A program made the translations under genes and the position numbers. Positions 12,403-46,596 of a stretch of 64,000 nucleotides of DNA are shown here, piece by piece. The stretch comes from Prevotella sp. (GTDB lineage Bacteria > Bacteroidota > Bacteroidia > Bacteroidales > Bacteroidaceae). The DNA is taken from NCBI GenBank assembly GCA_022775985.1, contig JALFIM010000039.1, positions 43,407 through 107,406 on the forward strand. The letters are read 5' to 3'. Below the pieces are notes generated by a model. It worked only from the letters and a program-made list of their open reading frames with translations, searched no databases and was not told the DNA's origin. Within the stretch, counting starts at the first letter, position 1, and each line of letters opens with the position of its first letter.

Positions 12403-12476
12403 TTTTACGGCAAAATGATAATGCGTCACACAAAATAGCGGCTCACCGCCAAGCGTCCCTTTACTGCAACGCCTTG

Positions 12477-12542
12477 CGAAATGGCCCATTTCACAGCGCA
12501 AAACGGCCCATTTTGCAACGCGAAATGGGCCGTTTTGCAACA
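12477..12542. repeat. 22-base palindromic GGCC array, locus 1 (three units)
   Basis: Three units of the form GCGAAATGGGCCGTTTTGCA sit side by side with GGCC cores at 12483, 12505 and 12528. Spacing is 22 then 23 bases; the extra base arises where the core switches from CGGCCC to GGGCCG. Each unit is roughly self-complementary. The array lies in the gap between divergent phoH and the exported protein gene at 12885. The same element occurs at 18472, 29251 and 46212. Confidence 0.9.
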
Positions 12543-12734
12543 CACTCATAATCAATATACTACGCCAAGCAAATCCATAGCATCAGACATGCGGCGCGAC
12601 ACACCGCCAACAGGCCATCCATACAGCACCCCACTCACCCGATGTGCTCACGACAACACACGTGTCTCACCACTAATTGCCGCCGCACGGCAAAATTATC
12701 ACATCCGTGCGGCAGTTATCTCAGACTATTTTTG

Positions 12735-18171: not shown

Positions 18172-18471
18172 CGATTAAAAATGCGAATAAAAAACTTTAT
18201 AACAAACAAAATCGAAAATTCCGATGCTTTCTTGATTTAATTCTGTGTCAGTGCGTGATTTAAATCCGTATCACAGCTAAAAACCATCACGAGAAGCCGT
18301 ACCAGCCTAATAATCAGCAAAAGACATGGCATTTCTTCAGGAACGTGCAAAACAACCGTCAGCCATGTTTGCCACATAGCATGATTTATCTGAAGAAAAG
18401 ACGAAATTGAACGCACCCGACACCGTAAGCAGATTGTTCAGGACTGAAATTCATACCAGAACATATCAGTT

Positions 18472-18562
18472 TGCGAAATGGGCCGAATTGCACTGCGAAA
18501 TGGGCCGTTTCGCAGCCTAAAACGGGCCGTTTTACGCTGCATTTCGGGCCATCTTGCAACAC
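18472..18562. repeat. 22-base palindromic GGCC array, locus 2 (four units, exact 22-base pitch)
   Basis: Four units related to TGCGAAATGGGCCGTTTCGCA have GGCC cores at 18481, 18503, 18525 and 18547, exactly 22 bases apart. Arms vary (GAATT, GTTTC, GTTTT, ATCTT after the core) while the GGCC centre and the pitch are kept. It lies in the divergent gap between glycogen synthase and a secreted-protein gene. Confidence 0.93.
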
Positions 18563-18748
18563 ATTGTGAATCAGACCGATACGGAACAGCATGTATTTGC
18601 ATCAATGACAATGCTATTACAGATTTCTGATTGGCTAAACGTAGTCTCTCTAATTATTGAAATAATATGTGAGAAAAGACTCTAATATAAATCCATCCTG
18701 TGTACTTCCTTGTCAATACTGCCTTTATCAATGATTTTACCTCAAGCC

Positions 18749-29041: not shown

Positions 29042-29250
29042 ATGTTTTTTTTCCAGTTATCCGAATAAAGCATGCTGATATTGCGTTTTTTAAGTAGTTT
29101 TTATGGTTTGTGCGTGTGCGCGTGAGAGGCCGATGCTTGACACGACGCGAGTCAGACAGCAACATCATCACAAGCCCATAGCGACGGTCTACAAGCCAAT
29201 CCCATAAGCCTCTGATACCAAACGACTTAACAAATCAATACAAACATCGT

Positions 29251-29340
29251 TACAAAACGGCCCATTTCGCAATCCAAAACGGCCCATTTCGGACGGCAAA
29301 ACGGCCCGAATCGCAGCGCGAAACGGGCCGTTTTACAAAC
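29251..29340. repeat. 22-base palindromic GGCC array, locus 3 (four units)
   Basis: GGCC cores lie at 29259, 29281, 29303 and 29326, giving spacings of 22, 22 and 23. The first three units read ACGGCCC and the last CGGGCCG, and the one-base shift occurs exactly at the orientation change, as at locus 1. The array is between lon (reading away) and the small antitoxin-like gene (reading toward it). Confidence 0.92.
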
Positions 29341-29430
29341 AGGTGTCATACCGTTTGATTAATTTGTTGTTCATATTGAAAACCTCTCAAAGTCATACTT
29401 ACATTTTTTTAGTTGTACTTAATCTGTACA

Positions 29431-46190: not shown

Positions 46191-46211
46191 TTTACAGCTA
46201 CTCACCATACC

Positions 46212-46303
46212 GATTTGCGAAACAGTCCGTTTTGCACTGCGATTCGGTCCATTTCGCGTCCTAAAACGGGCCGTTTTGCAGCGCGATTCGGACTATTTCA
46301 CAA
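46212..46303. repeat. 22-base palindromic array, locus 4 (four units, diverged cores)
   Basis: Four units have centres at 46225 (GTCC), 46247 (GTCC), 46269 (GGCC) and 46291 (GACT), each exactly 22 bases apart. Only the third keeps the perfect AAAACGGGCCGTTTTGCA form, but arms such as TTTGCGAAAC and GCGATTCGG are clearly related to the other loci. It lies in the divergent gap between the sialidase-fold gene and cstA. Confidence 0.88.
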
Positions 46304-46596
46304 GTCACTGAATTTCAAAACGTTACAGTCATAAGACCAGAGCACGACAGACACAGAGCCAAACATCGCATACACAAGTCCAAAGGTACGCCCTGCTGTC
46401 ACCGACATACTGCCCACAGCGGCAGACTCACGCTCTGAAAGCCACGGACGAGCGGGCCATACGGCACACCCCACAGATGGAGCACTACGCCAACTGACGG
46501 GGCTGACGTGCATCTACATGCCAAAGGCCCGACTGGCCAGACAAAACAAATCGAAATAAAAGCGGCCGTTTTCTTTCATAATCGGAATGTTTTATA

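Follow-up and report, generated by a model that had tools for sequence, protein, structure and literature searches.

The closest described relative of the element reported here is PINSR, a non-coding intergenic repeat of 188 bp that is present in 177-184 copies in the P. intermedia/nigrescens group (Naito et al. 2015, PMC4755523). PINSR was reported to lack terminal repeats, three quarters of its sites are common to two strains, and it is absent from most conjugative transposons; in 2015 it was considered specific to its group and was without known function (PMC4755523). No later paper on PINSR was among those listed by a search of the open-access literature. In the same bacterial order, the BrickBuilt MITE of Porphyromonas gingivalis is built of 23-nt units repeated 1 to 22.8 times, has IS5-like terminal repeats and occurs in 19 copies per genome (PMC4596501). 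BrickBuilt and the family described here are both intergenic tandem arrays of short repeats with a leader and a tail, but the latter has 22-bp units, mostly four of them, and no GAGACC-type ends were seen. The BIME/REP and RIB/RIP repeats of enterobacteria are likewise clustered extragenic palindromes of high copy number, and beside the palindromes they have an IHF-type site, which the 3' flank described below resembles. The present family differs from these in that no RAYT was found with it, the number and pitch of its units are fixed and its sequence is unrelated. RIB/RIP repeats lie at the 3' ends of transcription units, whereas the elements of the genome analysed here do not, as their gap types match background and their strand is random.

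The window (the whole stretch of 64,000 nucleotides that was analysed) comes from a genome of Prevotella sensu lato, referred to below as G000. The initial annotation had described four intergenic arrays of three or four palindromic units each, and all four are present in the window sequence at the loci it gave, with three units at 12476 and four at each of the other loci, although they proved to be part of a larger phenomenon than it had reported. The features are as follows.

18459..18585, + strand: whole element, consisting of a 5' piece, four 22-bp units and a 3' flank
18473..18557, + strand: four imperfect palindromic units with a pitch of exactly 22 bp
18558..18582, + strand: 3' flank aacacattgtgaatcagaccgatac, an imperfect hairpin; the family consensus contains the IHF-like WATCAANNNNTTR
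12462..12564, + strand: three-unit element (units at 12476, 12498 and 12520) with its 3' flank at 12539-12563
29224..29350, - strand: four-unit element (units at 29252, 29274, 29296 and 29318) with its 3' flank at 29227-29251, upstream of lon
46203..46329, + strand: four-unit element (units at 46217, 46239, 46261 and 46283) with degenerate cores and its 3' flank at 46302-46326

The 22-bp steps that had been noted at the 18472 locus are exact, the units starting at 18473, 18495, 18517 and 18539. In the array at 46217 the majority of the cores are degenerate (GTCC, GACT) and the 22-bp pitch is intact. Three of the four loci are in divergent gaps and one is in a tandem gap, and none is inside a gene, as had been claimed.

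Copies of the family are discrete elements, about 125 bp in length, and typically consist of a short GCCATACSGNTTT-like 5' piece, four imperfect palindromes of 22 bp and a AACRCRYTGTRTATCARYGYGTTAC-like 3' flank that is an imperfect hairpin. Aligned copies have sharp edges, located about 13 bp before the first unit and 26 bp past the last. Within each unit an imperfect palindrome of 19 bp, roughly GCRAAAYGGSCCRTTTYGC, precedes a linker of 3 bp. The core of the unit is GGSCC, which explains why GGCC strings are found 21-23 bp apart while the pitch of the units is 22 bp. When a position matrix of the unit was scanned over stretches sampled from G000 (849 kb), it returned 54 arrays with at least two units, in which 156 of 156 unit spacings were exactly 22 bp. 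Exactly four units were present in 48 of the 54 arrays, and two of the six exceptions are truncated by contig ends. A genome-wide search with a gapped GGCC pattern, which the initial annotation had suggested, bore out the pitch: GGCC-N18-GGCC occurs at 394 sites in the 2.86-Mb genome versus 13 for the reversed control, far in excess of chance. Extrapolation from array density and pattern counts gives an estimate of about 180-200 copies in G000, of which the array-density component is biased in both directions by the choice of contigs.

Pitch is conserved to a greater degree than sequence, a comparison that the initial annotation had proposed. Copies in G000 have a mean pairwise divergence of about 30% over 85 ungapped unit bases, and all 156 spacings remain at 22 bp. 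Conservation is high in the core and arms and low in the linkers, with variation clustered in the linkers and at certain two-state positions. Despite the divergence, no indel between units was found in any array of the 849-kb sample, which indicates that indels are not tolerated, an outcome that neutral decay would not yield. We read this as selection on geometry, and recombination that draws on a set of unit words may contribute as well.

Of 150 genomes that belong to the same GTDB-type genus, 46 gave full-length hits to a sequence profile, and the units differ between species. Those of G082 are GCGAAACG-NNN-CGTTTCGC and those of G108 are GCAAAACAGCCGCTTTTAC-like, in each case with four units at 22 bp. 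The profile built from G000 matches the G108 elements along nearly its whole length (best E ~1e-11), and the G108 consensus in turn matches 22 places of the 568-kb replicon of P. nigrescens, the best at 93%. The elements of G108 and P. nigrescens are PINSR, an identification that draws on the species concerned, on the length and copy number of the repeat and on its placement rather than on the published sequence. The initial annotation had recognised no named element of this form and is corrected in this respect, PINSR (PMC4755523) being a named member of the family. Like PINSR, the window-family elements are intergenic and non-coding, with the copy number in G000 given above. PINSR was described as clade-specific, a restriction that fails with the distribution of the window family over the genus, and its description includes neither the internal 4 x 22 architecture nor outside relatives nor spacing. 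The sharing of the 4 x 22 anatomy across Prevotella species whose unit words differ is new here. In the PINSR-type elements of G108, three words (CAGCCG, CCTACG and GAGCCG) are interchanged between units, and the adjoining units 2 and 3 have unlike words in excess of chance expectation (z -5.9).

The placement of the elements bears on what they might do. Genes were called with a simple, custom-written hexamer gene finder for which small errors are expected, and with these calls none of 49 G000 elements overlapped a predicted gene and 239 of 245 elements in five genomes and the P. nigrescens replicon were intergenic. Units mainly within genes or at random spacing, which the initial annotation had held to be incompatible with an operator array, were not the pattern observed (239/245 intergenic, 156/156 at 22 bp). 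The 236 intergenic elements assigned to a gap type were in tandem (130), divergent (48) and convergent (58) gaps, and their strand relative to the gene was random (66 versus 64) in the same set. Gap types in G000 equal background, and a leaning toward convergent gaps is confined to the PINSR-type genomes. No element with the window's sequence was found on plasmids. The preference for divergent gaps that had been noted holds for three of the four window loci but vanishes genome-wide. It is on this evidence that operator arrays for one or more transcription regulators are largely refuted and have become the least probable of the explanations weighed here: the in-phase palindromic sites and the divergent gaps of the window would suit operators, but there are some 180-200 copies, convergent gaps are used freely and divergent gaps are not in excess, strand is random with respect to genes, and operators are not expected to be evenly spaced (see below). 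Of the nucleoid-protein or regulator array that had been suggested, the part concerning a regulator at promoters is not supported, given the convergent gaps (58 of 236) and the strand counts, but the nucleoid type gains from the pitch held under divergence, the even spacing and the IHF-like flank.

It has also been suggested that the arrays act at the level of RNA, through hairpins that serve as a terminator, an mRNA stabiliser or a structured RNA. Single arrays do form much more stable folds than their shuffled counterparts (z -3.7 to -7.1), and the preference of PINSR-type elements for convergent gaps would be in keeping with such a role. The strong folding of single arrays results from the stacking of palindromes, however, and chimeras made by dealing units among elements are nearly as stable (|z| < 1.8 on both strands). 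Covariation of paired units was no higher than in shuffles, and covariation between units gave no signal after correction for unit phase. The RNAalifold consensus structure was weak, with pair counts equal to those of shuffles. Rfam returned only tRNAs at gathering thresholds, so that the elements themselves had no match, and weak matches to eukaryotic miRNAs at permissive thresholds were judged to be chance. Strand is random with respect to transcription, and RNA hairpins do not need an exact helical pitch. Of the RNA-structure suggestion, the folding holds and the covariation does not, and we consider an RNA-level element quite improbable.

Dispersed bacterial repeats are usually taken to be randomly scattered mobile debris. 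In the four genomes below and in a named replicon, copies of the window family are instead more even than any null tested, and their geometry outlasts complete change of sequence. The nulls, four in number, dealt an equal number of elements randomly among the available gaps of the same contigs. The coefficient of variation of neighbour distances was 0.37 in G082 (null 0.78-0.84), 0.46 in G000 (null 0.87-0.92), 0.51 in G157 (null 0.88-0.94) and 0.57 in G108 (null 0.87-0.91), with p <= 0.001 under all four nulls in every case. None of 48 intervals in G082 was shorter than 3 kb, where 37% were expected. Regularity was not significant in G126, which has nine elements. The P. nigrescens replicon was even over 0-339 kb (0.57 versus 0.92, p 0.0007) and not significantly so for the 11 elements of the shorter stretch past 445 kb; taken whole it is irregular because of an element-free hole of 135 kb. 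This hole, at 325-461 kb of NZ_CP082843.1, corresponds to annotated conjugative, IS-rich and RHS genes. Even spacing is new here, both for the four genomes and for the P. nigrescens replicon once its conjugative elements are set aside. Species-specific self-DNA tags, such as DNA-uptake or recombination-recognition sequences of which most fragments would carry one, might account for even spacing together with species-specific words and fixed geometry, but an uptake tag of 125 bp would be a long one and one copy per 6-14 kb is a low density; we consider tags very improbable, hardly more credible than operators.

The 3' flank provides a further clue. At a fixed offset in the flank, the E. coli IHF consensus WATCAANNNNTTR is matched perfectly in 12 of 52 G000 elements and with at most one mismatch in 25 of 52, and none of 1000 column-permuted controls equalled this match. 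The match is weaker in the G108 flanks, and in G082 a one-base difference between two flank subtypes throws it partly out of alignment; both points count against the explanation favoured below. There are five matches to PF00216 (HU/IHF fold) in the G000 genome, and Prevotella HU/IHF proteins may read an E. coli-type consensus in the flank.

Even spacing and constrained geometry suggest a function in chromosome organisation. The explanation that we favour, and which the sequence patterns would give about an even chance of being correct, is a DNA-level protein-binding array with a role in spacing along the chromosome. Each locus is a single copy of a non-coding element dispersed through intergenic DNA, and the element would work through its four phased palindromic sites, which recur at every second helical turn next to an IHF/HU-like site. 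The units would be dimer sites at which a putative protein binds cooperatively along one face of the DNA, with the bend site aiding formation of a nucleoprotein node. Such nodes, 6-14 kb apart, might organise the chromosome as loop or supercoil anchors, as has been proposed for BIMEs. Selection would maintain pitch and spacing, while the protein and the unit words would drift together, such that the words come to differ between species and the geometry stays.

Against an organising role is the turnover of sites, which a strict scaffold need not show. Between G108 and P. nigrescens, with a median protein identity of about 89%, three of five and two of six syntenic elements are shared, and this partial sharing indicates gain and loss of sites within short evolutionary times. 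Filled and empty versions of sites are seen between sister species in gaps that are too diverged for a target duplication to be read. Near-identical, burst-like copies occur in G108. Turnover, discrete edges and the burst-like copies keep in play the main rival explanation, which is a REP- or MITE-like mobile element that is not autonomous and in which the units would be transposase sites, the IHF-like site would aid the transpososome and spacing would arise through target immunity. The ends of Tn7 and Mu have multiple transposase sites of roughly 22 bp, are assisted by a host bending protein and belong to systems in which immunity spaces insertions, bound transposase blocking insertion nearby. 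This resemblance is one of logic only, and no transposase or autonomous element was found for the window family. Target immunity could nonetheless explain the even spacing in place of function, and four phased sites read by a putative protein would be the core of the array and mobile-element explanations alike. High copy number and the copy-free 135-kb conjugative-element region of P. nigrescens, which fits an older amplification, also agree with mobility, as do the element ends in G108, which show an imperfect inverted match.

Other evidence argues against mobility. The RAYT-type Y1 transposase that the initial annotation had proposed looking for (PF01797) has no match in the 92% complete G000 assembly, whereas 5 of 14 controls match. 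No terminal repeats are visible in the elements of G000 or G082, and none were reported for PINSR (PMC4755523). Three quarters of PINSR sites are common to two strains (PMC4755523), strongly diverged copies have no indels, and neither an autonomous partner nor a target duplication was seen, the compared gaps being too diverged for the latter. The suggestion that a transposase moves a REP-like element is favoured by the REP/BIME-like form and by the sites gained and lost between sister species, but not by the lack of a Y1 transposase and of visible terminal repeats in G000. On balance we regard a mobile element as unlikely, though a serious contender. The end match in G108 is weak, imperfect and TGTAAAnATnnTTC-like, and is present even though PINSR was reported without terminal repeats. 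A block of 6.9 kb with 97% DNA identity between G082 and G157, which are otherwise distant, carries one element, which was probably transferred horizontally along with its host DNA.

A broader form of the favoured array explanation can be offered only tentatively. It is possible, though doubtful, that the Prevotellaceae have a spacing system of their own, with hundreds of 4 x 22-bp nodes 6-14 kb apart and a fast-evolving partner protein, in which words would be rewritten genome-wide between species and geometry and spacing conserved. Either bacteria are able to maintain protein-binding nodes at regular steps along the chromosome, or a mobile element controls how far apart its own copies lie, alternatives that are testable in cultured Prevotella, and PINSR moves from an unexplained species marker to a testable system.

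Intergenic repeat periods were surveyed in 80 lon neighbourhoods of Prevotellaceae. A lag of 22 was by far the commonest, with 34 arrays spread over 22 of the 80 loci, followed by 44, the double of 22, with 16 arrays, and 14 with 14; this prominence of lag 22 under unrelated words speaks for the favoured array explanation. The lag-22 arrays use unrelated unit words, such as GTACTCGCAGTACATGGGCTTT or TTGTAGTATCGGTACAAACATC, and their named carriers include Hoylesella buccalis, H. loescheii, H. marshii, Prevotella conceptionensis and P. brunnea. H. marshii and H. loescheii were among the species tested in the PINSR study and were not reported positive; the 22-bp-pitch arrays that they carry are of other sequence. 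Palindromicity in the distant species is only modestly above chance, with p <= 0.05 in 9 of 34 arrays when odd-length axes are included, which tells against that explanation. DNA alignments of the orthologous gap upstream of lon end at the gene, and distant species share few syntenic gaps in which sites could be compared. Beyond their likeness of form, the lag-22 arrays of distant species may be homologous to those of the window. Unit number in the lon-locus arrays ranges from 4 to 9, being free in some Prevotellaceae, where arrays reach six to nine units, and fixed at four in others. The raised lag of 14, whose arrays are distributed over 10 loci, could represent a second repeat family.
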